Below are positions 13,061 through 64,000 of a stretch of 64,000 nt of DNA, piece by piece (positions within the stretch are counted from its first letter, which is position 1; every line of letters begins with the position of its first letter). Below the pieces are notes generated by a model. It searched no databases, was not told the origin of the DNA, and saw only the letters and a list, made by a program, of their open reading frames with translations. Both the position numbers and the translations under genes were made by a program. The DNA is from Hemerocallis citrina. Its lineage: Eukaryota > Streptophyta > Magnoliopsida > Asparagales > Asphodelaceae. Location: NCBI GenBank assembly GCA_017893485.1, contig CM030366.1:100948953-101012952 (forward strand), in the 5' to 3' direction.

Positions 13061-13109
13061 CGAAGGCGTAGGGCTTCGGGCTTCGGTTATTAGGCAGGAG
13101 AGCTCGGAT

Positions 13110-13690: not shown

Positions 13691-13843
13691 CAAGCGTTGA
13701 TAAGAGGGGAGAGAAGCATGCGAATTTAACAACACGAAAGAGCTTTCTTTATTAATAATCGACGGCGAACCGTTTTACATAGTACAATTTATGAAAATAG
13801 GTTACAAGTCGGAGGACTGGAATGGCTCGATATCCTATGATAC

Positions 13844-14116
13844 TTAGAGTGGCGCCGGAGCGCTCTCTTGGTATTTTAGGAGGTGGTCGGCATTCCAGGT
13901 CCTCGGAAGCTCTCTGCCCTCTAGGTCTTCAAGACGATATGTTCCGGGCCGAACTACCCTCGTGATCCTGTATGGCCCTTCCCAGTTCGGAGCCAGCTTG
14001 CTCTTCTGACTGGGGAAGGATATGGCTAGCTTTCTCAAGACCAAATCCCCTTGCTTAAGGTTGGCAGGTCGGACCTTTTTGTTGTACGCAAGTTCAACCC
14101 GTCTTCGGTAAATCTG
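13844..14116 (-). pseudogene. Integrase C-terminal part (after an in-frame TAG)
   Basis: Same frame as the upstream pol frame, which ends at a TAG (14117-14119). The piece includes KLAPNWEGPYRITRVVRPGTY and RTWNADHLLKYQ, the usual C-terminal sequence of plant gypsy integrases of the Tat type (no chromodomain). The stop codon cuts it off from the catalytic core, so the product would lack it unless the stop is read through. Confidence 0.85.
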
Positions 14117-15736: not shown

Positions 15737-15739
15737 CAG

Positions 15740-17722: not shown

Positions 17723-19556
17723 TCAGGTACAGAATCCTTTCCTCCTCAAACTCGGGTGTCTCTTCGCGTCGCTCGGAACGCTTGTTAGCCCCCCGATGCA
17801 GAGGGGAATTTCGGTCCGCCCGATCGTTAGCCTTCAAGAATTTGGCCAACTGCCCTCTCCGGATGAGGGCTTCGATCTCATCTCTCAAAGCCCGGCAGTC
17901 GTTCGTGTCGTGGCCGTGGTCTTGATGGTAACGGCACCATTTATCTTTGTTCCTCCTCTTTGCCGGGGTGTGCATCCTCGGAGCTGGAGGGATGACCCCC
18001 TCCTTCTCCACTTCCATTAGGATGGTAGAGACGTTAGTGGTGAGGGGAGTGAACTTCTCGAACCTGGGGGGAGGGCGACGCTGACCGCCATTGTCTTTCT
18101 GAGCCTTCTTGGACCCCTCTTCCCCCGTCGCCTTCCTCTTCGACCCTGAGGAGGACCCCCCGAAGCTCGGAAGGGCTTCGGCCTCCTCTGCTCGGATATA
18201 CTTCTCGCACCTCAGGAGGAGGTCGGCGAAGTCATGTGGGGACTTCTTGGCTAGGGACGAACGGAGGTTGGCATTGAGAACGTTCGACTGGAACGCCACT
18301 GTCGCCACTGACTGGTCTAAGGAGGCGATAGACCTAACCTCTGCGGTGAATCTCTTCACATAGTCCCGCAGCTTCTCTTCCCTTTCCTGCCGCAGGTTCA
18401 GTAGGGAGAGACTTGTCTTCTCGGCTCGCCTGCTACTCACGAAGTGAGTTATGAACAGTGTTTCAAACTGCTCGAACGAGAAGATGGAGGAGGGGGCGAG
18501 TCTGGAATACCATTCCCGAGCCGACCCCCGGAGGGTGGTAGGGAAGGTCCTGCAGAGCACGGCGTCGGAAGCTTGATGGATCAGCATCAGGGTCTTGAAG
18601 CTTTCGACGTGATCGACCGGGTCGGATTCCCCTGAGTACGTTTCAAACTGCGGAGGTTTGAAACCCCTCGGTATGTGGGCCTCCATGATCGATCGCGAGA
18701 AAGGGGGTCGGCTGGGACGGACGGTTCCTGCTCGGGACTCCTCCTCCCTGTCCATGCGGCCAACATGCCTTTCCACCTCATGGAGACGGCGGATGAGGGC
18801 GTCGTCCCTCTGCTGGTAGTCGTATGACCCCCCGGACTCCTCTTCATAGGAGGGGGAGCGCGGACTGCGGCGCCGGTAGTCCTGGGAACGGCGTGGACTG
18901 TATTGCTGCCGCTGGCGGCTGGGAGCCGGGGAAGGACTTCGAGTTCGGCGGCGAGGACTGGGGTCCCTCGGTGGTGTCAGAGCCCTCTGAGCATTTTGGA
19001 CGTTCTGCCGAAGATTGAGGGCCTGTAGCACAGTGTCCTGAAATTGCAGGAACTCGGCACGAGTGATCGGTGCGTCATTGTTCCTCCGAGGATGCCGATC
19101 CGCGGGGGAATGCGGCCTCCTCCTCCTGCGTTCGGGGGACATTGCCCGGCCCCTACGGTCCGGGGACCTCCTACCGTCTCGGCGACGAGGAGACCGCCCA
19201 CCCTGACGCTGGCGGGAGGCTCCCTCTCGGGCCCGCCTCTCGTCAAGGTGTGTGCGGAGGTCGTCGTCCTCCTGGCGGTTCAGGAGCGTGTTGCGGAGGT
19301 CGGGATGATGGGAAGCCATCGAATCCGAGGATCCGTTATGAACCGAGACATAGTCCTGGTGGAGGGGCTGCTTCTGCTTCCGGCCGTTATGGCCGGAAGG
19401 GCCATTGTTGGGTTGCTGCTTGGGATGAGGTGGGACCTGCTGGGCCGGTGGAGGGAGATCGGACTGTGGAATAGGATTGACAGGGACTTCCTCCGTAGGG
19501 TCGACGGGATTGGCCACACGGTTCGACCCTCTAGATCTGACCTTCTTCGGAGGCAT
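17715..19556 (-). CDS. Gag polyprotein of the Tat element
   Basis: 613 residues if the first ATG inside the internal domain (MPPKKVRSRG, 19554-19556) is used; the frame is open further upstream into the 5' LTR, but that part is leader sequence. The N-terminal third is Pro/Arg-rich and disordered. The retrotransposon Gag core includes AREWYSRLAPSSIFSFEQFE and LRDYVKRFTAEVRSIA. Near the C-terminus is the knuckle-like CRYHQDHGHDTNDCRALRDE, typical of Tat/Retand Gag. It would form the cytoplasmic particle that packages the RNA. The stop is TAA at 17715-17717. No internal stop is seen, so Gag is the one intact protein of this copy. Confidence 0.92.
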   Translation of the reverse strand: MPPKKVRSRGSNRVANPVDPTEEVPVNPIPQSDLPPPAQQVPPHPKQQPNNGPSGHNGRKQKQPLHQDYVSVHNGSSDSMASHHPDLRNTLLNRQEDDDLRTHLDERRAREGASRQRQGGRSPRRRDGRRSPDRRGRAMSPERRRRRPHSPADRHPRRNNDAPITRAEFLQFQDTVLQALNLRQNVQNAQRALTPPRDPSPRRRTRSPSPAPSRQRQQYSPRRSQDYRRRSPRSPSYEEESGGSYDYQQRDDALIRRLHEVERHVGRMDREEESRAGTVRPSRPPFSRSIMEAHIPRGFKPPQFETYSGESDPVDHVESFKTLMLIHQASDAVLCRTFPTTLRGSAREWYSRLAPSSIFSFEQFETLFITHFVSSRRAEKTSLSLLNLRQEREEKLRDYVKRFTAEVRSIASLDQSVATVAFQSNVLNANLRSSLAKKSPHDFADLLLRCEKYIRAEEAEALPSFGGSSSGSKRKATGEEGSKKAQKDNGGQRRPPPRFEKFTPLTTNVSTILMEVEKEGVIPPAPRMHTPAKRRNKDKWCRYHQDHGHDTNDCRALRDEIEALIRRGQLAKFLKANDRADRNSPLHRGANKRSERREETPEFEEERILYLIL

Positions 19557-19603
19557 GGCTGCAGAGGACGACAAGGAAGAAGCTGAGGCTGTTCGTGTGG
19601 TTG

Positions 19604-19621
19604 TTCCCACAGACGGCGCCA
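19604..19621 (-). other. Primer-binding site of the Tat element
   Basis: Minus-strand TGGCGCCGTCTGTGGGAA, three bases inside the 5' LTR end. The leading TGG pairs with a tRNA CCA end, and TGGCGCC starts are common in Tat/Athila-group elements. Which tRNA is used would need comparison with a tRNA set. Confidence 0.85.
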
Positions 19622-19624
19622 ATC

Positions 19625-20215
19625 TGTTACCGCTGATTTCGGTGTGGGGGTAAACAGATAGAATTTGTGAGTCCGAGAAAAACCTGAACAGTTGACTCAA
19701 CCTTCTTGCTCCTGCCGCGACCTGCAAGGAAGTGCGAAACACTGGGATTGATTCCGGCGACGCACCCTTCGACGCTCTTGTGAGTAATCAGAAGAGATTA
19801 AGAAAGAGCTTAAAAGTGGTGAAAAAGTGATTAACCTGGTCATGGTAGTAGAGGGGTGATATTTATAGTCGCCAGGGGAGCCGTTTAAGGATCTGATCTC
19901 CTGTGTAACAGTCGGGAGCAAAATCCTCAGTCTGTTTTAGGAAATCTTTTCTTGATTCCCGGTGAGAGCAAATCAGGGCCATTGACTTGCCCAAATCATG
20001 GATCCTGATTTGTCTCTTGATGGTTTGGGTTCGTCTCGGGACGGAACCCGTACCCAACTGGTGTGGATCCGCTCGTGGGTTATTGGATCTGTGAGACGGA
20101 GATTCAGTACCTGCTTTGGATCCGCTTGTATGTGAAGTTACCTTTTTACCCCCGAGCTTCAAGATTCGTGCCCAATCTGGACGGTTCCGATTTAACCCCA
20201 TTTTTAGCCATATCA
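19625..20215 (-). repeat. 5' LTR of the Tat element (591 bp)
   Basis: Starts TGATATGG and ends CGGTAACA in sense orientation; TATAAATA at 19860-19867. It is followed on the plus strand by the right AGAAT duplication (20216-20220), then by the resumed host repeat. Confidence 0.95.
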
Positions 20216-23872: not shown

Positions 23873-26800
23873 TCAAGTTGGATGTTCTGTGAAGAAAAAA
23901 TTCTGAACAGGATCAACAGCTCCTTCGATTTCTATTGGCCCATCTTCTTCATCATCAACAATATTACCACTATCTAGTATATCAAACACAGCTCTGGATG
24001 GCCTTCTCAAGACTACCCATATATTTGGATATATAGGATCTTCGATGTAAAAACATTGTTCAGCGTGATTTGCAAACATGAATTTATCATCTATACATAT
24101 TTCTTTCTTCAAATTCACAAGCTGAAAACCACACTCATCCTTGGATTTTTGCATTTCACACCAACACACTTTGAACATTATGTATTTATATTCTTGTTGA
24201 TGTCCATAATATATCTCCACAATATCTTCTAGCTGACCACGGTACATTACATTACCTTCACGAGGTTTTTTATCTTTATTGCTTGAATAACATCTTTGGG
24301 TAAAGACCTGAACAATCCCGTTATTTTGGGTTGTTCTATTTTCTTCTAGAGAAGTTATATGAAACTTGAAACCATTAACACAATACCCGCCATACCTATT
24401 CACCCATGAAAGTGGACCTCTTGAAAGAGAAACAACTAGATCCGAGACAAGTTCTCCTTAGCAACTAGGTACTCAACCTAACATGAAATAAGTAGAGTAA
24501 TTTTAGTTAATAATATCTTTCCATGCACACACACACACATACAGAAATGAAGTAGGTTTAAGGATAGACTTATAGAATTATATGTGACTTTGAAGCCAGT
24601 ATGGAAAATCCTTTCTGTGAATACGAACAATTTCCCTTGTTGCATTTTTTCCCTTATATTTCTTCCACAATTCTTCGATGTGTTTACTACAAAAAATAAT
24701 AATGATAACTTGTTAAAGAATAACATTTTATATAATCATAAAAATACTAAACTATGTAAAAGGGCATAGTGAACGCAATTTCGGAACATATCTATTTCTT
24801 CAACATTATTTAACACATATGCATGTGCTTGCTCCAACATTTCTCTAGGGTAATGTGCATCCTCCTCAATGAAAGAAAATAATGAACCCTCTACATTTCG
24901 AACATGACGATTTAGCCTTGTTTCCACATCATGCAAATAATGTGAAACAAAGTTTAAGCATTCGTTAGCTAAATAATTTTCAGCTATTGAACCTTCAGGG
25001 CGTGCTCGATTATGAACTTGTTTTTTCATAAACCCCAAATACCTAGAAACAAGAAACAATCACAAATTTATAAGTACATGTACGCATGTTTCTAAGTATA
25101 ATATAAAATTTTTAAATTAGGTTCGTAGTCTTTAGTACCTTTCAATGGGATACATCCATCGATATTGGACAGGACCACCTATCCTAGCCTCGGCAACTAA
25201 ATGTACTGTAAGGTGTACCATGATTGTGAAAAAAGATGGTAGAAAAAATACTTCTAACTTGCACATAGTCTCTAATACTTGTTGCTCTAGCTTCTCAAAC
25301 TCTGATGCATCAATAACTTTTGAGCACAACTTATTAAAAAAGCCACAAAATTCTATCAAAACTTTAGCAACTTCAAATTTCATGTTATGCCAGAGTGCAA
25401 TAGGTATTAGTTGATGCATTAGTATATGGCAATCATGTGTATTGAGGTTTGGAGTTTTCCTATCTTGAACCTGCACATTATTGGAAATATTTGAAGAATA
25501 GCCATCTGGAGATTTCACTGATTTAAGCACCTGAAAAAATCTCTGCATCTCTTCTTTGGACATGGTGAATACTGATGATGGAAATTGAAACCTGTTATCC
25601 CCAATATCTACAGCTTGAAGGATCCTACGTATATCCATGTCCATCAAATCTCGACGAGCCCTTAAATCATCCTTTGATTTCTTCGAATCTTGCACGAGTG
25701 TAGATAATCTATTGTCACATATGTTTTTCTCTATATGCATTACATCCAAGTTATGCCTAATCTTAAGATCCTTCCAATATGGCAAGCGAAAGAAAATGCT
25801 TATTTTGTTCCACCCTGCCAGCAATTTTTGTGCATTTTCATTGTTACTTATTCTCTTGCCCCTCTTCCATTTCTTTACCTGAACTGCATTGTCTGGCTTG
25901 AAACGATCTTTTCCAAAAGTCACATTTGGAAGCCCCTCTAGTTGTTGGAAAATGTCAATTCCAGACATCTGTATTGGTGCTATCTGTCCTTCAACTGTTC
26001 CATCAAACTTATTCTTATTTTGACATAATGGATGTTATGATGGCAGCCACCTTCGATGACACCAAAAGCAAAACTTGCGAATATAAGTGAGACGCTTCCC
26101 CTCGTAATCTGTTGCACAAATAGGACATGCAAATCTACCCTTAGTTGACCAACCAGAAAGATTACCATAAGAGAGGACAGCTGCATGCATTTTAAATTCT
26201 TTCTTAGAGTAAGCATCGAATGTTTTAACACCAATCTCCCATAGAATATTTAGTTCATCAATAAGTGGTTCCAGATATACGTCAATGTCATTACCAGGAG
26301 AAAATTTCCCAGGAATCAACAAAGACAGAAATATGTATGGTTGCTTCATACACATCCATGGAGGTAAATTATATGGCATAAGCAACACAGGCCATGTAGA
26401 CCATGATGAGCTCATTAAACCAAAAGGGTTGAACCTGTCGCTTGCCAAAACCAATCTGACATTTCTTGAATCTTCAGCAAATTTTGGATACAAGCGATCT
26501 AGGTGCTTCCACGCCTCTGAGTCAGCCAGATGTCGATGTCGTAGTTTGCCATCATCGATACGACATTTGGAATGCCACCTCATTTCCTTAGAAATATCTT
26601 TGGACATATACAATCTTTGCAATCTGCTTATGATAGGAAAATGATGAAGAACCATAGCCGCCACATTCGTTTGATTTGCTCCCTCTTCAGACGTACTTGC
26701 AACTGCAGTGAGCTTATTCTTTTTCCACCTAAAGACCTTGCACTTTGGACATTCAACCAGGTCATTATACTCCTTATAATATAGAATGCAGTCATTGGGA

Positions 26801-27471
26801 CACACATCAATCTTGTTGTACTCTAGGCCTAGTGTCGCAAGAATCTTTTTAGCATCATAATATGATTTGGGTAAGCTCTCTTGCCCATTGAGGATTACTC
26901 TGCGAAGTAAATCAAGAAGCATCTCAAAATGTTTTATGGACATCCCACTTATAGTTTGAAGATGGAAAAGTCTAACCATAAATGAAAGCCTAGAAAATTT
27001 AGTGCAACCATCATGTAAGTTTCGCTCATTGTCCTCTAGTAGTTTCACAAGCTCATTAAAATCTCCGAAGTCTTGATTTTGAGGTGCTTCTCCTCCATGT
27101 ACCACGTCCTCATCACCATAGGTTGCAGCCATTATGTCGTCCAACATAACATTCATGTCGTCAATCCTTTCAATCTCCACTTGAGCTATTTCCTCGTCTG
27201 TGTTATAAGCATCCATTCCTTCTCCATGATAATCCCAAAAAATGTAGTCCTTACTGAACCCAAACATCAATAAATGTTCACTAACTACTTGATCCTCTAA
27301 GGTTCTATTCAAATAATGTACACATGGGCAATATATTTTTCCTGTCTCAGAATGGTAAGGATTTTCATCAGGATATTTCAAGAATGCCACTGCACCTTCT
27401 TCATATTGTTGGTTCTTAAACCTGTCTTTCTTAAGTATACTAATGAATGATTTGTCTGGAAGAATTCTCAT
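23873..27471 (-). pseudogene. TNP2-type CACTA transposase
   Basis: It starts MRILPDKSFIS at 27471 with a transposase-associated N-terminal domain (YCPCVHYLN, HLLMFGF). The Transposase_21 core follows (DLVECPKCKVFRWKK, ASDRFNPFG, WSTKGRFACPICATDY). A TAA at 26035-26037 breaks this frame, which then continues unchanged (25132-25968) with a DUF4218-like part (LMHQLIPIALWHN, VAEARIGGPVQYRWMYPIER). After an intron (about 25030-25136) comes an exon with NRARPEGSIAENYLANE (24736-25059), a short exon near 24585-24688 (KHIEELWKKY), and a DUF4216 part (23873-24403; RYGGYCVNGFKFH). This order matches plant TNP2 proteins. It would cut and join CACTA ends in the nucleus. The stop makes it a probable pseudogene; the usual 'DGFNPFG' reads DRFNPFG here. 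Confidence 0.88.
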
Positions 27472-28120
27472 CTGAAAGTTTACAACATTTATTGTTAGTT
27501 ATATAATCAAACAAGTGCATACATAATTATAGTCGCATTCTTTCAAAAAAAATTTGGTACACACATGAAATCTAGTTAGTAAGTGCAATGAAATATTTCT
27601 GTAATAGTGTTATTCACAAGATTTTAAGTGTTAACATTTTTGTTTACAGTGAATAGAAGCTGTACATGCATTGTTGTGTTTGAGCATTGCCAGTCATTTC
27701 CCTATGTACTGTGAGCAATTGGCATGCAATATACACATCATCCTTGAATTTTTGCTATCAGCAAGCAATCACCCTCTAACAATTTCAAGTGCTCAACCAA
27801 TAGATCTAAAAACTTTACTTAGGTCCATTACCACCCATACTTTTCACAAAATGTAACCAACCTGCCCCACTCAATACTATGTTAAAGTCATACCGCTAGG
27901 TAATTCTATTAGTCTATATGCACATTAGTAAACACACATATAAACACTGCATTACATCTATGCAGTTTACAAAAGCAAATCCATCAAAAAGCAGAGCAAC
28001 AACAACCACAACATCAAAACAAATCCATCTACTACCATTTCCCTCTATCGTCCATCAAAAAGAAGATTTCTCTCTACCGTTTCCCTCTGCCGTCCATCTC
28101 CTATCCTGCAAGCTCTCACC
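27472..28120. other. TNP2 upstream region, noncoding
   Basis: AT-rich; probably promoter and leader of TNP2, and the expected place of the right CACTA end. TAGTG occurs at 27605-27609 with some resemblance to the left terminus, but the flanking triplets do not match. No gene is seen. Confidence 0.4.
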
Positions 28121-40119: not shown

Positions 40120-41867
40120 TGTAGTACCCCGTATTTTTAAATACTATTTTTGAGATTAGAAAATGAATTAAAATGATTTTTGAGAGATTTAATAAATATT
40201 TTTCTAAAGATTTATCTTTTACATGTGCAAATATTTTTGGTATAAATATCCAATTTTATATTTTTAATAAATTCTCCTACTTATAATAGAGTATATTCTA
40301 AATTTTGGAAATTTTCTGAGTAAAAAAACTATTTTTATAAATACCTCGAAAGAGATGGGCTTTTATGTAAAAAGCCGTTTGGATCTCAAATAAATAATGA
40401 AAATTTATTTTTGCTGATTTTTGGGCTTTCCATGGTCATCATTGAAATTAAAATATATTTAAACTTTATTTAGAGTTGATTTGGTAAAGATTTAAACAAA
40501 TATGGTGTTTTTGCAAATATGAAATTTATGTTGGATCTTGTGCAAATATTTTTCTGGAAAGTAAAAGTCAGATATTTTTATTGAAAAATATAATATGTAT
40601 TAATAGATATTATTTCTGGATTTTTACGAATATTTTATGATGTATTTGCAAATATTACAAAAAGGAGGGCTTTTGTGCAAAATTGCCACCCTGAGTGCAA
40701 ATCCGAATTTTACTTATTTTTGGGCTATGCTGGATTGCTGGAAAACTCAGTAGTAAAAGGATTTGATTTGGTTTTTATTTATTTAACTTATTTTATCTAC
40801 TTTATAAAGAAAGGTTTATATATGTAAAGTTATATTTTGAAAGGATTATTTTGCAAATATGTTTCAAACCCTAATTCTTCATTTCCGGCCAGTATAAAAG
40901 GTGGAGTGCAGCCGTCATTTGCTACACAACACAAGGTTTATTTTTTTTTATTTTTCTTGGAGATTGAAAGAGAAGGGCTTTGATTATTCTTCATTAATTC
41001 GATTGGATTCTTCATTTGAGGTGAGTGACATGTTTGTTTTTATTTTATTTTGCGTATGTTGTATGTGAATGACTTGTTTGGTTCCTTTTGATTTGTGTAT
41101 GTTGTATGCGAATGATATGAATATTTTGATTGATCTTGGATGTTGAATTCCACATATTAGAAAGCATGCTAGGGTTTGGTATGAATATGTATATTGGATG
41201 GATGGATGAAAAATTGGATCTTTGAGAGGAACCCTAGATATTTGCATGTGAATGATTTTAGATTTGTTGGAGGACCTAATATAAATTGTGAGTAGACTTT
41301 TTCTTTTGGATTATTGATTTGACTGAGTATGATGGACGTTCTGCATTAATTAATTAAAGATGAGATTTTTGGGACTATTGGTGAGTTGGATGAAAACAAC
41401 ATGGCCATGTTGATGATAAATTGGTTTTCGTTTATGAATCAACTATTGAGAGCAGTTGATATTGAGTTTGAGAAATTTTGAGAATAAATAATGGTTTAGA
41501 GGACCATGTTTTGAGAATTTGAGTTATGATGACTAAAATTGGGGATTGATACATTTTGATTTAATTTGGGAATTTTCTTTTGAGATTTGGTTTTGACGTG
41601 GTTTGGATCTGTATACGAAGCTATTTCAACGAACAATTAATTTTAGAAACTCTATTTTGACTATATGCACAATTTATGTTTTATTGGAAAGAGATTTACA
41701 AATCACTACTTTTATAAATTCAAGCAATTTGATTTAGTTTTATAGACTATTATATGTCCTACCAATTGTATTTGGTTATATAAGAAATAAGTTTTTATCG
41801 AAATAGTTCTCATAAAGTAAAACTATGTATCGGTTGAATTGTGCACAACCAAAATACTGCAGACTGA

Positions 41868-42225
41868 AGGCCGACAGTCGACTGTTGTGAATTCTCAGTC
41901 GACTGATACAACCCGGCTACTTTTTTCAATAGTATTCCTGAAATTTGGTTCTGGACAGTCGACTGATGACTTTTACAGTCGACTGATATCACTCAGATTA
42001 TTTTCTCGATGTTATTGTAATTTTTCTCTCTAGACAGTCGACCTATACCCTTTTCATTCGACTGCTATACTTAGACTCATTTTTCCTAAAATTACTGGAT
42101 TTCTCTCTGGACAGTCGACTGGTGAGTTTTACAGCCGACTGTAAATACTTAGATTTTATTTTCTTAAAGATGTTAGTTTCTCGCTCTGGACAGTCGACTA
42201 ATGACCTTTTGCAGTCGACTAGTTC
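41868..42225. repeat. ~78-bp repeats each holding paired CAGTCGACTG palindromes (5' LTR)
   Basis: 'ctggacagtcgac'-type starts at 41951, 42030, 42107 and 42185 (spacing 79, 77, 78), with an earlier unit at about 41868. Each unit has two copies of the 10-bp palindrome or a one-mismatch form, separated by 10-16 bp. The same block is at 45.98-46.33 kb in the other LTR. Confidence 0.85.
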
Positions 42226-42714
42226 TGATGCTTTTCTTGGGTTTTCCATATGTTCTTTAAACGATTGATTCTTTAAATATTTTTGGATCTATAAATTACT
42301 ATTCTAAATATTATTCTTTCTACAGAACATATATTTTCAAGATATTTCATTGTTGAATTTGGATTATGGAATTTTATAAAGATTTGGGTTTTGTTGATCG
42401 AAGAGGTTTCTCCCTTTGATCGTTTTGACGATGGATTTGTGAACTTTGGTCTTGTTGAGATCTCTAGGAGTTGAGTGGGAGTCCTGTGTACCGGCAGTTG
42501 AGATTTGTTGAGTTAGACCTGGGGGGTCTTGGTTTAGTTGTTGTTGACTATTTAAATCTGGCAGGATACACTAACTCTAGAGATGGGGATTTTGTGGTTT
42601 AATAATAATCAACTTAAGGACAGGCACTAGTAGGGATGTGATGGAACTTGGGAAACGTAAGTATAGGCTCATAGTTTTGTTAGTCCAACGAATGAATTCC
42701 AGGACTGTTTGTTG

Positions 42715-42970
42715 TTCTGTCTCGAGAGGACATTTGTGTGTTCGCATGTCGAGGGTCTGCAGGCCTATTCACGGAGCATGCAGGGTGCATTCGCGTGTCG
42801 AGGGTCGGTAGGCCTATTAACAGAATGTACCTGGTGTATCTGCACGTCGAGGGCCTTACAAACCTATTCGTGGAGTACACGGATTTGGGAGATGATTCTC
42901 CAGTTGTTTTGAGCTATCTTACATGATGCTTGCGCGTCGAGGACTGTGGTGCCTATTCGCGGAGTATTCT
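42715..42970. repeat. ~63-bp 'gtcgagg..cctattc' repeats (5' LTR)
   Basis: About four imperfect units containing 'cg(t/c)gtcgaggg' and 'gcctattc(a/g)cggagta'. Repeated at 46.82-47.07 kb in the 3' LTR, with a related motif set at 51.2-51.43 kb in the solo LTR. Confidence 0.7.
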
Positions 42971-43658
42971 GGATCTTGTTTTCCATCACCGTAGTAGGAT
43001 TAGTTGCATAGCGAGGGGTTATTCCTATAAAGTGGAGATCGTTAAGGGCTTGCACCAGACCTATATAGAGTGGGATGCATAGAATCCGATAAGTATGCAT
43101 TAGAGAGTCAGCATATAGACTTGTATTTTGTTGACTTGGTTTTACGCATGTGCTTTCCTGTTTTCTACACTTGACACTTAGTTTAGTTCCACTTGATATT
43201 TACATGTTTCATTGCTATGTCCTATTTATGTATTCCTGTTTATTACATGTTGTTTATGAATCCATGCTTAATGATTATTTATGTTCTTTGTTTTTATGTC
43301 ACTCACACCTTTATGGTTGACCCCTTTAGTTTTGGGGGTTAGGGATCTTCTCTAGCCTCATGTGTTACATGTTGTTGCTTAAAGCTTGGAGGTTTGGATG
43401 CTTGAGATAGTTTTGAGATAAATTGATATAATAGAGCTTTTGTGTAAAATTTGTAAAAGAAGTGTTGTAAAAGGAAAGTTTGTAATTCAAGGTGTTTTGT
43501 ATTCCGCTGTGTTTGTAAATGATTGTTGTAACAAAAGTTTGAAATAAAATTTATCTGTGTTTTTGGGCTATGTATACTATTACATTGAAGTTGATGCTGG
43601 GAATTGTGCCACGTATTTTCTAAGATATTATATTAGAAATTCGGGGCGCTACAGAGAT

Positions 43659-43670
43659 TGGTATCAGAAC
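43659..43670 (+). other. Primer-binding site of the chromovirus derivative
   Basis: TGGTATCAGAAC, one base away from the usual initiator-methionine tRNA site TGGTATCAGAGC, five bases inside the 5' LTR. Confidence 0.75.
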
Positions 43671-43825
43671 ATGCTTCAATAGTAATAATAGACATAGTAT
43701 GAAAACCAACCTAGGTGTGGACACTAGAGCGTGAGTACCTAGGTGTGGACATTAGAGAGTGAGTATCATATAGAGTTAGAACATGATGTTTGGTTTGGGG
43801 TATGATTATGGTTTTGCAATAGGGT

Positions 43826-44020
43826 ATGGATGTGGATGTGAATTGTGTTGTGGTGGTTTTCCTTGGTCATGTCCTTTCTAAGGAGGGAGTGGCCATTGAT
43901 CCTCGGAAGGATGAAGCAGATGTGGAAGGTCAGAGTTGGATGCAGGAGTTCAGAGGTTGTTACGGCATGGCTTCCGATGGCAAGTTATCAGAGATGTGCA
44001 GTGGAAGATTGATTTTCTGA
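43826..44020 (+). pseudogene. Reverse transcriptase scrap in the element interior
   Basis: A 64-residue frame containing FLGHVLSKEGVAIDPRK, the conserved end of the gypsy chromovirus RT palm/thumb ('FLGHVVSKDGI.VDP.K'). Sequence on both sides does not match the family, so this is a deletion remnant. It shows that the element descends from a coding gypsy element. Confidence 0.75.
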
Positions 44021-44195
44021 ACTCTTTGTATGATGGTGTTCCTTCTATATGTTATATTTCCTTTGTTGGAATGTATTCTCCTGTATGATTGTATTTCATA
44101 AATTATGTTTCCATTTATGAGATATTGCATTCCTTATTGGTGTGGTGTGTTTGTTTGGACCTCATTAGCAGTAGTTCTGAAGACAGAACTCTTCT

Positions 44196-44208
44196 AAGGA
44201 AGGAGTGA
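44196..44208 (+). other. Polypurine tract of the chromovirus derivative
   Basis: AAGGAAGGAGTGA directly before the 3' LTR start (44209). Confidence 0.75.
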
Positions 44209-47200
44209 TGTAGTACCCTGTATTTTTAAATACTATTTTTGAGATTAGAAAATGAATTAAAATAATTTTCGGAAGATTTAATAAATATTTTTCTAAAAAT
44301 TTATCTTTTACACGTGCAAAATACGTGCAAATATTTTTTGTGTAAATATCTAATTTTATATTTTTAATAAATTCTCCTACCTATAATAAAGTATATTCTA
44401 AATTTTGGGATTTTTCTGAGTAAAAAAACTATTTTTATAAATACCTCGAAAGAGATAGGCTTTTATGTAAAAAATCGTTTGGATCTCAAATAAATAATGA
44501 AAATTTGTTTTTACTAATTCTTGGGCTTTCCATGGTCATCATTGAAATTAAAATATATTTAAACTATATTTAGAGTTGATTTGGTAAAGATTTAAACAAA
44601 TATGGTGTTTTTGCAAATATGAAATTTATGTTGGATCTTGTGCAAATGTTTTTCTGGAAAGTAAAAGTCAGATATTTTTATTGAAAAATATAATATGTAT
44701 TAATAGATATTATTTCTAAATTTTCTGGATTTTTATGAATATTTTATGATGTATTTGCAAATATTACAAAAAGGAGGGCTTTTGTGCAAAATTGCCACCC
44801 TGAGTGCAAATCCGAATTTTACTTATTTTTGGGCTGTGCTGGATTTCCGGACAACTCAGTAGTAAAAGGATTTGATTTGGTTTTTATTTATTTAACTTAT
44901 TTTATCTACTTTATAAAGAAAGGTTTATATATGTAAAGTTATATTTTGAAAGGATTATTTTGCAAATATGTTTCAAACCCTAATTTTTCATTTCCGGCCT
45001 GTATAAAAGGTGGAGTGCAGCCGTCATTCGCTGCACAACACAAGGTTTATTTGTTTTTATTTTTCTTGGAGATTGAAAGAGAAGGGCTTTGATTATTCTT
45101 CATTAATTCGATTGGATTCTTCATTTGAGGTGAGTGACATGTTTGTTTTTCTTTTATTCTGTGTATGTTGTATGTGAATGACTTGTTTGGTTCCTTTTGA
45201 TTTGTGTATGTTGTATGCGAATGATATGAATATTTTGATTGATCTTGGATGTTGAATTCCACATATTAGAAAGCATGCTAGGGTTTGGTATGAATATGTA
45301 TATTGGATGGATGGATGAAAAATTGGATCTTTGAGAGGAACCCTAGATATTTGCATGTGAATGATTTTAGAATTGTTGGAGAACCTAATATAAATTGTGA
45401 GTAGACTTTTTCTTTTGGATTATTGATTTGACTGAGTATAATGGACGTTATGCATTAATTAATTAAAGATGAGATTTTTGGGACTATTGGTGAGTTGGAT
45501 GAAAACAACTTGGCCATGTTGATGATAAATTGGTTTTCGTTTATGAATCAACTATTGAGAGTAGTTGATATTGAGTTTGAGAAATTATGAGAATAAATAA
45601 TGGTTAAGAGGACCATGTTTTAAGAATTTGAGTTATGATGACTAAAATTGGGGATTGATACATTTTGATTTAATTTGGGGATTTTCTTTTGAGATTTGGT
45701 TTTGATGTGGTCTGGATCCATATACGAAGCTATTTCAACGAACAATTAATTTTAGAAACTTTATTTTGACTATATGCACAATTTATGTTTTATTGGAAAG
45801 AGATTTACAAATCACTACTTTTATAAATTCAAGTAATTTGATTTAGTTTTATAGACTATTATATATCCTACCAGTTGTATTTGGTTATATAAGAAATAAT
45901 TTTTTATCGAAATCGTTCTCATAAAGTAAAACTATGTATCGGTTGAATTGTGCACAACCAAAATACTACAGACTGAAGGCCGACAGTCGACTGTTGTGAA
46001 TTCTCTGTCGACTGATACGACCCGGCTGTTGTTTTCAATAGTATTCTTGAAATTTGGTTCTGGACAGTCGACAGATGACTTTTACAGTCGACTGGTATCA
46101 CTCAGATTATTTTCTCGAAGTTATTGTAATTTTTCTCTCTAGACAGTCGACCTATACCTTTTTCAGTCGACTGCTATACTTAGACTCATTTTTCCTGAAA
46201 TTACTGGATTTCTCTCTGGACAGTCGACTGGTGAGTTTTACAGCCGACTGTAAATACTTAGATTTTATTTTCTTAAAGATGTTAGTTTTTCGCTCTGGAC
46301 AGCCGACTGATGACCTTTTGCAGTCGACTGGTTCTGATGCTTTTCTTGGGTTTTCCAGATGTTCTTTAAACGATTGATTCTTTAAATATTTTTGGATCTA
46401 TAACTTACTATTCTAAATATTATTCTTTCTACAGAACATATATTTTCAAGATATTTCATTGTTGAATTTGGATTATGGAATTTTATAAAGATTTGGGTTT
46501 TGTTGATCGGAAAGGTTTCTCCCTTTGATCGTTTTGACGATGGATTTGTGAAATTTGGTCTTGTTGAGATCTCTAGGAGTTGAGTGGGAGTCCTGTGAAC
46601 CGGCAGTTGAGATTTGTTGAGTTAGACCTGGGGGTTCTTGGTTTAGTTGTTGTTGAGTATTTAAGTCCGGCAGGATGCACTAACTCTAGAGATGGAGAAT
46701 TTGTGGTTTAATAATAATCAACTTAAGGACAGACACTAGTGGGGATGTGATGGAACTTGGGAATCGTAAGTATAGGCTCATGGTTTTGTTAGTCCAACGG
46801 ATGCGTTCCAGGACTGTTTGTTATTCTGTCTCGAGAGGACATTTGTCTGTTCGCTGTCGAGGGTCTGCAGGCCTATTCACGAAGCATGCAGGGTGCATTC
46901 GCGTATCGAGGATCGGCAGGCCTATTAACAGAATGTACCTGGTGTATCTGCACGTCGAGGGCCTTGCAGCCTATTCGTGGGGTACACGGGTTTAGGAGAT
47001 GATTCTCCGGTTGTTTTGAGCTATCTTACATGATGCTTGCACGTCGAGGACTGTGGTGCCTATTCGCAGAGTATTCTGGATCTTGTTTTCCATCACCGTA
47101 GTAGGATTAGTTGCATAGCGAGGGATTATCCCTATAATGTGGAGATCGTTAAGGGCTTGCACCGGACCTATGTTGAGTGGGATGCATAGAATCCGACAAG

Positions 47201-47758
47201 TATGCATTAGAGAGTCAGCATATAAACTTGTGTTTTCTTGACTTGGTTTTACGCATGTGTTTCTGTTTTCTACACTTGACACTTAGTTTAGTTCCACTTG
47301 ATATTTACATGTTTCATTACTATGTCCTATTTATGTATTCTTGTTTATTACATGTTGTTTATAAATCCATGCTTAATGATTATTTATGTTGTTTGTTTTT
47401 ATGTCACTCACACCTTTATGGCTGGCCCCTTTAGTTTTGGGGGTTAGGGATCATCTCTAGCCTCATGTGTTACAGGTTGTTTCTTAGAGCTTGGAGGTTT
47501 GGATGCTTGAGATAGTTTTGAGATAAATTGATATAATAGAGATTTTGTGTAAAATTTGTAAAAGAAGTGTTGTAAAAGGAAAGTTTGTAATTCAAGGTGT
47601 TTTGTATTCCGCTGTGTTTGTAAATGATTGTTGTAACAAAAGTTTGAAATAAAATTTATTTGTGTTTTTGGGCTATGTGTAATATTACATTGAAGTTGAT
47701 GCTGGAAATTGTGCCACGTATTTTCTAAGATATTATATTAGAAATTCGGGGTGCTACA
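44209..47758 (+). repeat. 3' LTR (3,550 bp) of the chromovirus derivative
   Basis: Collinear with the 5' LTR throughout, including TATAAAA (45002-45008), the palindrome block and the ~63-bp repeats. It differs by scattered substitutions and a few short indels. Confidence 0.92.
45975..46330. repeat. Paired CAGTCGACTG palindrome block (3' LTR)
   Basis: Same order and ~78-bp spacing as the block at 41868-42225; a few palindromes carry single changes such as CAGCCGACTG. Confidence 0.85.
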
Positions 47759-48301
47759 CCGGGCCTTCTTCAGGCTCATCTACAAGACATGAGCTTCTTT
47801 CATTCCCATAAAAAGTGATAGATTAGGCTCATTAAGAAAGACCCATCCCATGAAGGCTGTTAGTCAAATCTCTTATCCCCAAACAAGAGAAGTTATCTCT
47901 TGAGGGGAGATTCGAATAGGAAATAAGGAATTCATAGTTCATCCAATGGATTCATATCAATCTCATGTACTGTTTTTCAGGCCTATAAATACCCTCCCTC
48001 ATCTTCAGTCAGAAGGTAATTAACAGTTTTTCTCTCAAACTCTCTTTCTCTTTCACGTTCTGACTTGAGTGTCGGATGGTCTGTCATTTTGGCCAACCCC
48101 AAGAGTTTTAGGATTTTTGCAGGTCCACCGCCGCGTCAGCAAGCATCAGATCCAGATCACAGTGTTCAATTAACGATCCAGATTCAATCTCAGGAGCGCT
48201 AACCGCATTTTACGACAAAGATCAAAGATCTGGTTTTTAGTAATTTCTATAAAATATTAACTGACTATATATTTGCTCTCACACCAAAATAAGCAGCAAC
48301 A

Positions 48302-51430: not shown

Positions 51431-52400
51431 GAGAGCTGATACTTGTAAAATGTCTAAATCTCGTAGTAGTCATTATAGTAGGATAGTTGCATAACGTGGG
51501 ATTGAATCCTATAAAGTGGAGAACGATAAGGGGATGCACCGGACCTATGTAGTGTGGGTTGCATAGAATCTGACAAGTATGCATTAGTATTCATCATATG
51601 CATTTGTGATTTCCTTGACTTGATTTATACATGTTTTTCCTTGTTTTCCTTACACTTGACACTTAGCCTAACTTCACTTGATAATTTATGTTTCATTTAT
51701 TGTTATTTCATATTTCATTTGTTGTTACCGTGTTAATATGTTGACTATGATTTTGTTCTTTATGTTTCATCTAAGTTGTATTTCTTTTGAATATCACTCA
51801 CATCGTTATGGCTGACCTCTGTAGTTTTAGGGGTAGTTATCTTTATCCTCATATTTTACAGGTAGGTATCTTTAGCATGGAGTTGGGAACATGTGGTAGA
51901 TTAGTAAATGTTTATGCAATTTTGTAAAGAGACTGATTGTAAAGAGTATTAGATGATAGATTAGTTTAGTCCCACATTGAATAATGTATTGATTTAGTAT
52001 TCTCTTCTCTCCTATATATAGGAGACATATTGTACTCAGTTTAATCAATAATAAAGAATATTTTCCTATCTCTAATTCTAACATGGTATCAGAGCCTATC
52101 ATTCTATAAGGCCTATACTAATTTTATCCTCGTCGTCGAGGTGGAGTGATTCATCGAGCCTATCGGAATCACTCCACCTCCCAACATTTTTTTTCCTCTC
52201 CCGATTTTTTTGATCAAAACCCTAATCTCTCCCAAAACCCTAAATCTCCAAAACTCTAGCTGTTATCAACTATCTCCCCCAAAACCCTAAATCTCCAAAA
52301 CCCAGCCGTCATCAAACAACAAGATCCTCTTTCTCTCTCCTCCACTCTCTCCAAATCTCAGAATTAAAAAAAAATTAAAAAAATTAAAATTAAAAAAAAA

Positions 52401-52730
52401 ATCTCAGTCACCGTCCGGTTCCGTCCATCGACCGCCCAAGAATCCATCGAAAATCGGAAATGGCAGATCGAAGACAATCAGATCTTCCTCCACAGGCCCC
52501 TCGGCACTCCCATCTCTGGCATCACCTTGTCTTTTGATCACGTGTTTGACCAGAGCTGCACGAATGCCACGGTCTATGAGCAACTCACCAAGCCCATCAT
52601 TCAGGCTGCTATTGATGGATTCAATGGTACCGCTTTTGCTTATGGGCAGGGCAAAACCTTCACGATGAAAGGTTCTGAACAAGATCTTGAAATCATCCAC
52701 CTTGCTGTTACAGACATTTTCCAAATTCAA
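52401..52730 (+). pseudogene. Captured kinesin motor-domain N-terminal fragment (KIN-7/CENP-E-like)
   Basis: One open frame of about 110 codons starts ISVTVRFRP, the first strand of kinesin motors. It continues WQIEDNQIFLHRPLGTPISG, FDHVFDQSCTNATVYEQL, FNGTAFAYGQ, GKTFTMKGSE and IIHLAV.DIF. This is the standard order up to just past the P-loop. The ATP-binding GQTSSGKT motif lacks its TSS (reads GQGKT), an in-frame loss of nine bases, so it cannot be a working motor. The frame then runs into a C-run and CT repeats at 52731. It has no microtubule-binding half. The KIN-7 subfamily call rests on the HRPLGTPISG and DQSCTNATVYE phrases. The minus-strand frame 52404-52730 is its shadow. Confidence 0.85.
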
Positions 52731-53114
52731 ATCCTCCCCCCCCCCCCTTCCTCCTCCTCCTCCTCCTCCTTCTCCATCTCCAAATTAAATTTCCATATTT
52801 CTATTTCTAGATCTGAATAACCTCTCCATCCATCTCCTATTTTTTAAGCACCTTAAATTAGTTTAATTGATATTTTTTTCTTCTTCTTATTTGTTTTAAC
52901 CCGTGCGCCGTGCTCTCTCTCCTTTTGCTGTTTGCAGTTTTGCCGTTGTGGATTACTATTTTCCCCAAAAAAAAAAATAATAATAAAATAAAATAAAATC
53001 TTGCAGGTTCTTGTGCTTCTACATCCAGATTGTCAACTCACTCCGATTGACCGATCGTGATTTTGAGAGGGGTGTTATCAGCATCCAGTTCTCAGTCATC
53101 GACAATTCTCACGT

Positions 53115-60200: not shown

Positions 60201-60294
60201 CATTATAATATCAGTGTCGTTGGATTCAAAAATCTTCATCACACTCATGTTTTCATTGTTAATCTTAGAAGGGGCCTTATATCTCATACCAATT
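57233..60294. other. AT-rich interior of the CACTA-like region, no gene supported
   Basis: Three kilobases of AT-rich sequence. The open frames (58411-58692, 59490-60099) lack motifs and look like noise. I see no transposase, tandem array or terminal repeat here. Confidence 0.5.
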
Positions 60295-60580
60295 CACTAC
60301 AAATAAGAAGGCAAACTCCGACGTTTGTTTTGCCCAATCCCGGCGTATATAAATGCTGGGGCTGGACTCCCCGACACTTCGAAAAGCGCCGCCGCAAGTA
60401 CCGTGCTTTCCCCCGCCGCGGTTGCGGAATACTTTCTCCGGCATTTCCAAACGCCGAAGGATGTTACAAGGATATCCCGGCGTTTCCAAATGCCGAATAC
60501 ACCGGGATAAGTTTTTTTTTTTTTAAAATTCCCATTAAAAGACCTATCCCGACATTTGAAAACTCCGGGCTAGATTATAT
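60295..60580 (+). mobile_element. CACTA transposon end with 'ccggcgttt' subterminal repeats
   Basis: CACTACAAATAAGAAGGC at 60295 is followed by GC-rich motifs in both orientations: 'cccggcgt', 'ctccggcatttccaaacgcc', 'cccggcgtttccaaatgccg', 'cccgacatttg'. A typical plant CACTA end, from a different family than that at 56423. Frames over it (60325-60632) are repeat translations. The gene fragments at 60.9-62.5 kb lie just inside it. Confidence 0.7.
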
Positions 60581-60945
60581 TTTTTTTTTTTCTTTTTTTT
60601 TTTTTTACAATTGTGTGGTGGTGGCATATTAGATGAACATCACACAGAAAACTATCAGATAACTCCCACGCATTCAATAGATTTAAATCTCCATTCTAGG
60701 CTAATCATAGTATCCTGCTAAAAAAATGGACTACGAGAAACAGCGAATGGTATAAATAATGTCAACCAAGCAAGAAACGAGAAGAACCATTATACAAGTA
60801 CAAAATAGTGCCATTGTCTATTAAATAGTCTCAAAATCAGAGTCATCTTTATTCATCATAACACAAACATTGTCACTGAGTAAATTGGAATTGCATTACA
60901 AGATGCAATCTCAATTCGGAAAGTGAGGTTTAGACATCTCATTGC

Positions 60946-60968
60946 TTAGGCCTGCAGTCCGATGATGC
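60946..60968 (-). pseudogene. Cu/Zn superoxide dismutase, last exon fragment
   Basis: After the acceptor TTTTATCAG, the minus strand reads the last codons IIGLQA and TAA (60946-60948). Joined in phase with the exon at 61089-61142 it completes the conserved 'ACG.IGL' C-terminus of plant Cu/Zn superoxide dismutases. Only 23 nt; the call depends on the neighbouring exon. Confidence 0.75.
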
Positions 60969-61088
60969 CTGATAAAACGAAAAATTGAAACATATTATAA
61001 AATAGTAAAGACTCTGATTAGTAAACTATCTCAATTTAGAAATATGATTCGAGAAAACATAGGAATTATTGAACACAATGTGACTCAC

Positions 61089-61142
61089 CGCAAGCAATTC
61101 TGCCACCTGCATTTCCAGTGGTCTTGCTCAGCTCATGTCCAC
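61089..61142 (-). pseudogene. Cu/Zn superoxide dismutase, penultimate exon fragment
   Basis: A 54-nt exon between acceptor CCTTTTAG and donor GTGAGT. With split codons it reads GHELSKTTGNAGGRIACG, the signature region of Cu/Zn superoxide dismutase (GNAGxRxxCG), with the cysteine that normally forms the intrasubunit disulfide. 'HELSKTTGNAG' resembles the peroxisomal-type (CSD3-like) isoform. None of the upstream exons with the metal-binding histidines are found between here and 61966; instead nucleoside-transporter exons lie upstream on the same strand. So this is a captured 3' piece, not a working enzyme. Confidence 0.85.
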
Positions 61143-61149
61143 CTAAAAG

Positions 61150-61965
61150 GAAAAAACAAAAAAAAAGATTCAGGTCATTAGATTTCTTGAATAAACTGAA
61201 ATATGGATGACAGCTAACAACAAAAATTGTTGTCCAAGTTTATTGCATCTTCACTCTAGATTCGCACACATGTTAGATAAAGATAAATGACCGAGGTTAC
61301 CATTATCAAGAAATTCTGTAGGTCTAATGAGGCGATGTCTTCTAGTACCTCCTACTGAATATATTGTCAAAAAGATAATAAGCAGAAACATGTTTCTAAC
61401 CAAGCCTAGCTGCTTTAGAGCGATAGTGCCTTACAATTGGTAGTTTCGGGAAGACAAATGCATATAGGATAATACATAGCAACTCAAAAAATGTGGAGAT
61501 TGCGAAAAACATTACTGCAGAATGAAATGAGAATTATTAAAAGGAGTAATGAAGAAGTCACATAACTATTAATTAATTGAAGACAACTAAATATATAGGA
61601 AAATTTATAGTAGAATAGTATGCATTCTCATAATGTTGACATCTTACAATTCAAACCTTTATCGTTTTCTCCCCAAATTAGTCCAAGCAATTTATGTTTA
61701 TATACACATGTTTATATGTAGCAGGTACCTAGACAATATGCACTAGCTATCTATATAAAGGAGATTGATCAAATATATATCCTAGATTAGCTTTATGATA
61801 GATATTTAGGTTAGGATTTTGTTTAGAAGTATGTTTCGAATAGTTCCTAAATAAATGCTACATGCACAAGCAAGCGTACAAAATTGAGAAGAAATAACAA
61901 AAAAAAAAACATCGACAGTTCAGGTCTATAAATTGATATCCACAAGAATAGAATAGATCACGTAC
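61150..61965. other. Spacer between SOD and ENT fragments
   Basis: Mostly AT-rich and intron-like. On the minus strand near 61300-61360 there is a short protein-like stretch (RRHRLIRPTEFLDN) ending at a GTAACC donor-like site; I cannot assign it. If real, it would be a third fragment between the two genes. Confidence 0.3.
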
Positions 61966-62080
61966 AAGCTCGCTCCTTTTCGAAGACCATCTTGGGAATT
62001 CTCAAAAGCTACCTTTGTTATTAATCTCAACGCGGATGTCAGGGCTCCAGAAGCGGAGCAGCCATGCCAGCCAAGAATGA
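61966..62080 (-). pseudogene. Equilibrative nucleoside transporter, exon fragment with frameshift
   Basis: After the acceptor TATACAG, it reads SFLAGMAA. Five extra bases then shift the frame, and the rest (in the shifted frame) reads GALTSALRLITKVAFENSQD and on through KGAS, a hallmark stretch of plant ENT proteins ('SFLAGLAASGALTSALRL'). It ends at a GTACGT donor-like site. In intact ENTs this is a membrane-associated loop and helix of the 11-helix carrier. The insertion and missing neighbours make it non-functional. Confidence 0.85.
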
Positions 62081-62372
62081 CTGTATATGAAATGAACAAA
62101 AATATATGTTAAAAAAATTGCAACTATTATATCCAGAGAAAGAAATGTGTCTGACATTTTCTTCATCCTTCAAATGCATAATTTGAAAATTTTATGAGCT
62201 CTGTACAAAAAACAGCTGAAATCATCAAAGGCCCCTTCATTGCATAATACAATTTCAAGTTTGAGCACGGAATTGGCAGCAAGAATAAGGACAGAAATAG
62301 ATAAATGTGTGCATGTGGACACAAATCTGAAGTATTAGTTTCGGAACATTAATAGAATTGATACATGCATAC

Positions 62373-62496
62373 CTGAATCAGTTCCGGGCACATTAAAGAG
62401 AGATCATCAACCATTCTGCCTTGTACATGAGCATCTGCTACTCCAAATGCTCCACTGAGAATGCATACACCGATAAATGGTCCAATTCCTCCTCTT
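62373..62496 (-). pseudogene. Equilibrative nucleoside transporter, exon fragment
   Basis: A 124-nt exon between an ACATAG acceptor and GTATGC donor, reading GGIGPFIGVCILSGAFGVAD then AHVQGRMVDDLSLMCPELIQ. This matches the ENT family motif 'GxADAxxQGGMxGDLSxMxPEFIQ', with changes (G to R, G to D) at normally conserved glycines. It splices in phase to the exon at 61966-62080. Upstream ENT exons were not found up to the window's hAT-like end. Confidence 0.88.
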
Positions 62497-63492
62497 CTAT
62501 GTTAAACTACATATACAGATATCATGATATTCATCCATGTTAAACTACATATATAGAATACTCTACTAGGAGAACCAAAAGCAATTTTCACATGTTAAAC
62601 TATCGGTAGCATTTTCACATTTTCACAGTTTCACTTCAACAAGGAGAACCAAAAGCAATTGATATCTATAAACTTTAAAAAAAATCTTAGGTGACAGATC
62701 CACGAACATCAACAAATGCTTTGTAGACTTTACGCAGGTGCGCAAATAAACCCAAACAGAGAAATCTAATGCTGTTTATATTTATATATAAAGAGAAGTT
62801 TAAGAAAACCACTAACTAATATTTTCATGATTCGGGTTTCTACTTCACATAAAGGTAAAGATCTTAATCTATATACAAAAGAGGAGTTAAAAAAACAAAC
62901 AAACAAAAACAAGTAGCCAATATTTTCACGATTCCGTATTCACCAATTTTTTTCCCTCATTTTTGGACATTAGAGTGTGAATTCATTAGTTTGAAAACTT
63001 TAAATTTAGCACAACATATAGGCCAGGGAGGGAGGGAGTTTGAACAGAAAACATTACAACTTACCTCATGAACTAATTAATTAAGCTTTACTAACTAAAG
63101 TAATTTAGTTAATGTTTAGTATTTGCGTCCCTTATTTGAGGTTCCTTTGAAATGTGAAATCACCTTTCTTAATATATCAGTGAAAAAATAAATGACTACA
63201 GGCAATAAGCTAAGATTGCCAGCGGTCGAGGGAAAAAGAACTATATGTACTTCCTAAATGGTGAATATAACGAAGCAATAAAGTTTATAAAAAATACTAC
63301 AATGACAAGATTAGAGGCCTAAAAGAATAATGACTTAGCAGACTCTAAACAAGTGCTTGCGATAGTCAACAAGTTTTAACATAAATCCTAACCACACATC
63401 TTGTGAGCACAATCCTAGCACACATAATTAAGTTACCAAACAACATTACAAACAAGTAAAATTGAATGGAAAAAAAAACACATACTCCTTGG
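62497..63492. other. AT-rich sequence, no gene supported
   Basis: Upstream side of the ENT fragments. A short direct duplication ('catgttaaactacatata' at about 62500 and 62540, 'aaggagaaccaaaagcaatt' twice near 62570-62660) is visible. No exon or terminal repeat could be supported. Confidence 0.45.
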
Positions 63493-63690
63493 CAGTGTTC
63501 TAAAAAGCGGCCTAGGCGGCGGCCTAGGCGGCGCCTAGGCGCTAGGCGACCCCCCAACGCCTCGACTAGGGCCTAGGCGTTTATGAAAATCGGAAATGGG
63601 TTCTAGGCGGCTAAAATCGGACCTAGGCGGCGTTTAATCAGTCTAGGCGGGTCTAGGCGGACTAGACCCGCTTAGGCCTTAAGTAATTTA
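63493..63690 (+). mobile_element. hAT-like transposon end rich in CCTAGGCG
   Basis: CAGTGTTCTAAAAAGCGG starts at 63493, in the style of hAT terminal repeats (CAGxG). It is followed by about a dozen GCCTAGGCG/TAGGCGG motifs in both orientations, a subterminal architecture found in many plant hAT-type nonautonomous elements. The other end is beyond the window, so the 8-bp duplication cannot be checked. Confidence 0.55.
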
Positions 63691-63719
63691 AATTTTTAAA
63701 AAAAAGTAAAAAAAAAACC

Positions 63720-64000
63720 CACCACTCTCACTTTCTTCTCCTAATAAAAAAAATAAAAAACCCAAAATCGCGCTCTTCACTTTCACCCCCAAATCGCGCT
63801 CTTCACTTTCACCCCAAATCGCAGCTCCTCTTCCTCTGCCTCCCTCCTCCTTCGCCGTCTTCCTCCGCCTCCCTCCTCCTTTTCCGTCCTCCTCCGCCTC
63901 CCTCCTACAGTCCTACTTCGCCAGTTCGTCGTCCTCATCCGCCTCCCTCCTCCTTCGTCGTCCTCCTCCGCCTCCTCCTTCTCCTCCCTCCGACTCCGCC
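63720..64000. repeat. CT-rich low-complexity tract ('cctcctccgcctccctcc')
   Basis: Runs of 'cctcctcc' and 'cgcctccctcctcctt', with two copies of 'aatcgcgctcttcactttca'. It could be a leader or first exon of a captured gene or simple repeat; the window ends before this can be judged. Confidence 0.6.

Follow-up and report, generated by a model that had tools for sequence, protein, structure and literature searches.

The window analysed here (64 kb; C9:100948953-101012952 of Hemerocallis citrina) very probably contains part of a non-autonomous Pack-CACTA element, a hybrid of two CACTA families, in which pieces of an ENT gene and a Cu/Zn SOD gene were captured, joined and then multiplied. Gene capture in a CACTA-like element, as proposed in the initial annotation of this DNA, is strongly supported by both ends of the element, an ATT duplication, donor-like genes and copies with the same junction. 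The boundaries and duplications, the donor-like genes, the shared junction, the other copies and the hybrid structure can all be read directly from the genome (3.78 Gb in 701 contigs). For positions above 64000, the window coordinates were extended into the adjoining flank sequence.

Boundaries of the element

60295-65815, extended (C9:101009247-101014767): entire Pack-CACTA element, probably non-autonomous, 5,521 bp
60295..64000: portion of the element within the window, with the captured pieces on the minus strand; defined by terminal inverted repeats (TIR), target-site duplication and end alignments
60292..60294: left target-site duplication, ATT; the right ATT copy lies at 65816-65818, beyond the window
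60295..60590, plus strand: left terminus with subterminal repeats CCGGCRTTTCCAAAYGCCG
63493-64888 (63493..64000 in the window), plus strand: nested hAT-like insertion, 1,396 bp, with the 8-bp duplication CTCCTTGG on both sides

Both ends of the element read CACTACAAA, an exact TIR of 9 bp. The previously annotated CACTA end at 60295, with its subterminal repeats, is present, and the rightward extension proposed at the time uncovered its partner: a scan for right ends (GTAGTG) up to 25 kb from 60295 found one with the matching 3-bp ATT duplication, at 65815. Near the CACTA end at 60295 the subterminal repeats take the form CCGGC(A/G)TTTCCAAA(C/T)GCCG; motifs of the CCGGC type occur five times in the left 300 bp and four times in the right 300 bp, against a mean of 0.27 per 300-bp window in neighbouring windows (CACTA ends included), of which 3/200 reached five. 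The element accordingly displays terminal inverted repeats, a 3-bp duplication and subterminal repeats, as tested for CACTA elements. Its left terminus aligned to the base in all four of the genomic copies listed below whose match reaches there (B, C, E and H), and the alignment of its right end with other members of the family was likewise exact to the last base. No stop-to-stop open reading frame (ORF) of at least 150 aa was found in 60295-64000; beyond this, 64880-65720 was translated on one strand and read by eye. The site of the hAT-like insertion is uninterrupted in copy B and in loci L060 and L061.

The captured ENT and SOD pieces

61408..62497, minus strand: captured ENT piece, three exons with introns; the ENT genes on C473 and C7 match exactly from 62497 to 61408
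62373..62497, minus strand: ENT exon 1 (GGIGPFIGVCILSGAFGVADAHVQG...CPELIQ), 5' part missing (tblastn)
61966..62080, minus strand: ENT exon 2; compared with both donor-like ENT genes, it has a tandem duplication of 5 bp and, at the 3' end, an insertion of 4 bp
61408..61514, minus strand: ENT exon 3, truncated by the SOD junction (tblastn E 3e-14)
61408..61410, minus strand: ENT|SOD breakpoint, a 3-bp overlap of the donor matches with microhomology GCT
60624..61410, minus strand: captured Cu/Zn SOD piece, comprising an intron end, the last two exons, the stop and the 3' UTR
61089..61142, minus strand: penultimate SOD exon, GGHELSKTTGNAGGRIACG, phase 1 on both sides
60946..60968, minus strand: last SOD exon, IIGLQA and stop

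We searched 113.5 kb with ENT proteins using tblastn, which recovered the two ENT exons claimed earlier on the minus strand (E 8e-16 and 4e-12 for exons 1 and 2) together with a third, 61514-61408, that had been overlooked; no further ENT exons were found in the 113.5 kb. The limits of the pieces also shifted, the ENT start being in fact 62497 and the SOD match reaching to 60624. In a protein search with the ENT piece, the Pfam family PF01733 was present in 120/120 of the matches listed (the best 120 of 848). Among these, the top identities for named sources were 84-86%, including Typha, Musa and other monocots, which is suggestive of a monocot host, and the lowest E-values belonged to dicot proteins with duplicated domains. 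The ENT piece itself was not recognised in Pfam-A and PDB searches.

The two SOD exons annotated on the minus strand were borne out by protein structure and nucleotide searches alike. The peptides of the penultimate and last exons gave a best PDB match with E 4.3e-10 and a Pfam match to Sod_Cu with E 9.5e-4, below the cut-off, and by blastn the SOD piece matched gene C1 at 84% over 848 columns and gene C2 at 82% over 782 columns, spanning 61410 to 60624 and 61408 to 60630, respectively. The captured SOD piece is the 3' end of a cytosolic-type Cu/Zn SOD. As introns are retained in both pieces and align with the donor-like genes, an origin as a retrocopy (processed pseudogene) was ruled out.

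A genome search with the ENT-SOD stretch returned 52 rows: 20 for element loci, three for ENT genes (C473 and C7), two for SOD genes (C1 and C2) and 27 weaker ones (74-81%), which were set aside as other ENT genes; five loci that were inspected proved to be other ENT genes. Thus, intact-looking ENT genes and two SOD genes are present away from the element. Exon by exon, the ENT genes on C473 and C7 cover residues 6-418 of a Musa ENT protein, with stops only in apparent introns. The donor-like genes differ much less from each other in exons than outside them (ENT, 2/339 versus 27/732; SOD, 2/78 versus 109/673), as expected of working genes. The donor-like ENT gene at C7:286817520-286819136 has an intron insertion of ~0.5 kb with a short repeated flank.

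Copies across the genome

Besides the window, ENT- or SOD-derived element sequence was located at ten loci:

A, C6:200.79 Mb
B, C6:33.5 Mb
C, C3:115.7 Mb
D, C5:138.3 Mb
E, C3:328.0 Mb
F, C8:136.5 Mb
G, C8:101.7 Mb
H, C3:104.7 Mb
I, C9:219.3 Mb
J, C7:190.1 Mb

Sequence derived from both genes occurs together in 8/11 loci (window, A, B, C, E, F, G and I), which argues that the ENT-SOD pair was joined once and then amplified; in three of the eight (F, G and I) the SOD portion is intron with at most the first exon bases. In the stretches inspected, D and J contain ENT only and H contains SOD only. Copy H is complete, with 3,931 bp and a GTT/GTT duplication. Copy B is complete around large insertions (C6:33532132-33570654), has an AAG/AAG duplication and is of the same form as the window element, with a right terminus reading CATTA, not CACTA. 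This right end is absent from the 15 kb at C6:33549001-33564000 and was located ~17 kb further up; an AAG preceding a CACTAG motif within those 15 kb was judged a chance occurrence. Copy E has unequal 3-bp flanks, TGC and TTT, which counts against it as a clean insertion. The flanks of the window, B/C, E and H all differ from one another; those of B and C are the same, so these two may be one insertion that was duplicated, or else insertions into the same repeat.

In the donor positions of L054, the ENT piece starts at 2321 in A and E, the two copies in which this part is preserved; for the window and B the start is at 2612, indicating that the first ENT part was lost in the latter two. The SOD piece ends at 5750 in donor coordinates in both the window and E. 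Pooled copy-to-copy differences for ENT amount to 161/2647 (6.1%) in exons versus 271/7017 (3.9%) elsewhere; for SOD without copy E they are 42/780 (5.4%) versus 306/6355 (4.8%), with exon limits off by at most 3 bases at the edges. Exons therefore differ at least as much as the sequence outside them, and nothing points to selection on the coding sequence, with single SOD pairs sometimes showing the reverse (e.g., window-B, exon 2/78 versus other 32/715). K2P distances between the ENT copies range over 0.035-0.067, which at a rate for grasses, possibly not that of the host, dates the copies to about 1-3 million years.

Junction and reading frame

The window and copies A, B, C and I share the ENT|SOD junction, which reads ACT in copy C and GCT in the other four. 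The introns within the ENT piece and within the SOD piece have GT..AG borders, and the matching phases reported earlier hold inside each piece (0/0 at the join of ENT exons 1 and 2; 1/1 within SOD). They do not hold between the pieces: with phase 2 at the present end of ENT exon 2 and phase 1 needed at the start of the SOD exon, a splice from 61966 to 61142 is out of frame. The simple in-frame ENT-SOD message envisaged by the initial annotation is further contradicted by the third ENT exon, which intervenes; the frame through this exon enters the SOD intron and reaches a stop after three codons. All five copies that cover the end of ENT exon 2 (window, A, B, C and D) have the 4-bp insertion there, which is in neither ENT gene and which, together with the phases, rules out a present-day in-frame fusion. 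The 5-bp duplication in ENT exon 2, noted earlier as an insertion marking decay, is real; as a mutation private to the window copy it was ruled out, since it is shared by B and C (3/5 covering copies) and absent in A and D.

These data bear on the reading that the element is a functional chimeric gene, in which a promoter and first exon at the right end would lead into the ENT exons and then the SOD exons with a polyadenylation signal, yielding a selected protein or a regulatory RNA. The arrangement is suggestive, since a probable TMEM208 first exon (see below), middle exons of ENT and last exons of SOD with the 3' UTR follow one another 5' to 3' on one strand. The end of exon 2 in the donor-like ENT genes and the SOD exon start are both in phase 1, so that skipping of ENT exon 3 could have kept the frame across the original join, and gene fragments borne by a CACTA element are spliced chimerically in soybean, as outlined in PMC1947982. 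Against this stand the 4-bp insertion, which puts the join out of frame in every covering copy, the stop into which ENT exon 3 reads, and pooled differences that are not lower in exons, making a functional chimeric gene very unlikely. With an out-of-frame ENT-SOD splice and exons no less variable than the rest, there is no sign of protein function, and in all likelihood the element has no role as a protein gene. Transcription from the right end could yield spliced RNAs, non-coding or truncated, that terminate in the SOD 3' UTR.

A hybrid of two CACTA families

62509..62569, minus strand: 61-bp piece common to the ENT-SOD-type elements H, E and A, marking the family switch
62570..63492, minus strand: right-half sequence, from ~62940 rightward common to CACTA elements lacking ENT-SOD in the stretch inspected

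Left of 62569 the element matches H, E and A. To the right, L060 and L061 match it from 63492 to 62942/62939 at 93-94% and also from 65597 down to ~62940, and copy B has 63331-62570 in common with the window. The right termini divide in the same manner: that of the H type, CACTACAAAAGATAAGAGA(A)ATGCCCGG (H, E and D), differs from that of the window element, which matches a terminus at window position 48491, further loci whose match begins at the terminus, L060, L061, L062 and copy B. The element is thus a hybrid, with its right half from one CACTA family and its left half, bearing ENT-SOD, from another; the switch lies near 62570, with ~370 bp (62570-62939) between the two family-matched parts. 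Two insertions, in the window and in copy B, with different 3-bp duplications indicate that the hybrid has been mobile as a unit.

The match of the two halves to different CACTA families would also be expected if the end at 60295 paired with another right end (e.g., 68025) and the end at 65815 belonged to a separate insertion, and a second CACTA pair at 56423-68025, with AGG duplication, does enclose the element. These other bounds are nevertheless highly improbable: ATT flanks 60295-65815 on both sides, AGG and not ATT follows 68025, and in copy B these two ends enclose the same content, with AAG as the flanking duplication.

The least credible account is that of a decayed host locus in which the ENT and SOD genes, and a CACTA end close to them, came to lie together by chance; it would explain the retained introns and normal exon order, but we rejected it on the presence of only three ENT exons across the 113.5 kb of the tblastn search, the donor-like genes, ENT and SOD matches that end at the same bases in different copies, the eight loci with both kinds of sequence, and the boundaries and duplications in three complete copies. 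An intact ENT or CSD gene continuing nearby, named earlier as the mark of such a locus, was not found in the stretch searched. A genome scan for the SOD family gave no match on the contig of the window, but this is weak evidence regarding a nearby SOD gene because the scan also failed to pick up the window's own two short SOD exons.

For the Pack-CACTA hybrid, we envisage the following order of events. An ancestral element would have acquired genomic DNA, introns included, from the middle exons of an ENT gene and the 3' end of a cytosolic-type Cu/Zn SOD gene. The two pieces would have been joined in the same orientation at the 3-bp microhomology, apparently at the DNA level, and the element would then have multiplied, presumably mobilised in trans by a CACTA transposase. 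The lineage that includes the window and B has the right half of another CACTA family, which probably carries the first exon and upstream region of a TMEM208 gene.

Further candidate gene pieces

The right half of the element probably holds the first exon of TMEM208 and its upstream region. TMEM208-like N-terminal residues at ~65290-65207 (minus strand) match Pfam PF05620 with E 0.0075 over model positions 7-32 of 167, and a similar peptide of L062 does so with E 0.0032 over 1-28, both below the cut-off, as were all the TMEM208 matches (E 0.003-0.15). A 49-residue TMEM208-like peptide had no Pfam match, and two protein searches and one PDB search with the TMEM208-like piece returned nothing.

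Elements elsewhere have other candidate pieces. L062 (C2:282152601-282154200) is a CACTA element in which a piece resembling TauE/SafE (E 0.02, below the cut-off) comes after a TMEM208-like first exon. The SOD piece of copies F and I (L038 and L036) switches just behind its splice acceptor into an aquaporin-like ORF, which matches the aquaporin family MIP with E 2.2e-5 and 24.8 bits (cut-off 25); a shorter peptide was without a match.

Surrounding sequence

Rfam, at its cut-offs, and ARAGORN reported nothing in the 64-kb window. The region 23873-27498 (minus strand) is a CACTA transposase region of the TNP2 type, with matches to Transposase_21, DUF4218, Transpos_assoc and DUF4216 in separate ORFs; the TNP2 region proper lies at 25.1-27.5 kb of the window, and its presence is in keeping with the Pack-CACTA reading. 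A CACTA right-type terminus at 48491 (plus strand) aligns with the right end of the element over 142 columns at 77% identity; within 25 kb, no partner carrying an ATG duplication was found for it. The pair at 56423 and 68025 is a possible outer CACTA element, going by its AGG duplications and 10-bp TIR. Further to the left, 4953-20215 contains Ty3-type retrotransposon ORFs (RT, RNase H and integrase) between direct repeats (4953-5543 and 19625-20215) that are 98-99% identical, and 40120-48300 comprises a direct duplication of ~4.1 kb, with repeat pairs 94-98% identical among those listed. At 52368-52820 (plus strand) a kinesin motor domain begins (Pfam E 1.7e-19) and then gives way to low-complexity sequence; it is possibly another gene fragment.

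Relation to known systems and significance

Pack-MULEs and Helitrons mobilise gene fragments, and a Pack-MULE has a long TIR and a duplication of ~9 bp. The element described here differs from both in that its ends, 3-bp duplication and subterminal repeats are those of CACTA; with a TIR of 9 bp and a duplication of 3 bp, its identity as a Pack-MULE was rejected. Capture of gene fragments by CACTA elements is already established. The closest likeness is to Tgm-Express1 of Glycine max, described in the portion of PMC1947982 considered here as a 5.7-kb CACTA element with five host gene fragments whose exons enter chimeric spliced transcripts. Both are CACTA elements of similar size with unrelated gene fragments that keep introns and splice sites, and the present one is probably non-autonomous like Tgm-Express1. 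They differ in genes and host, and in that transcripts are known for Tgm-Express1, whereas the present element is read from DNA alone; on the other hand, several genomic copies, the shared ENT|SOD junction and the two-family hybrid are visible in Hemerocallis. As a TIR DNA transposon with host exons, it also resembles the Pack-CACTA and Pack-TYPE elements outlined in PMC8903248 and PMC13317346. In the model presented there, neighbouring Pack-CACTA insertions fuse, and the hybrid structure would fit what this model predicts. CACTA elements of Chenopodium share host gene fragments and recognisable subterminal repeats; those described in the relevant part of PMC8978399 have transposase domains, whereas none was found here in the part scanned. 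Judged on titles and the starts of abstracts, no report of a CACTA element with ENT and SOD turned up; one candidate, PMC3544724, was set aside as unrelated, since the passages in question concern an intron of a manganese SOD.

If the readings of the further gene pieces are right, host exons are freely exchanged among these elements. We tentatively consider, as a possibility short of an even chance, a modular Pack-CACTA group in which cargo exons are swapped behind a constant captured head beside the right terminus, made up of a TMEM208-like upstream region and first exon. The cargo would be ENT and SOD for the window and B, a piece resembling TauE/SafE for L062 and recombined SOD/aquaporin-like sequence for F and I. 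Were this true, any fragment behind the constant head could be supplied by it with a promoter and a first exon that are mobile.

The element is a new and clear case of a process already known, not a new kind. It adds a case in which one genome shows the donor-like genes, the junction common to several copies, the two source families and the hybrid inserted at two places. This makes the case useful for testing how such elements form, as the junction, the switch point of the hybrid and the order of later mutations are directly readable.
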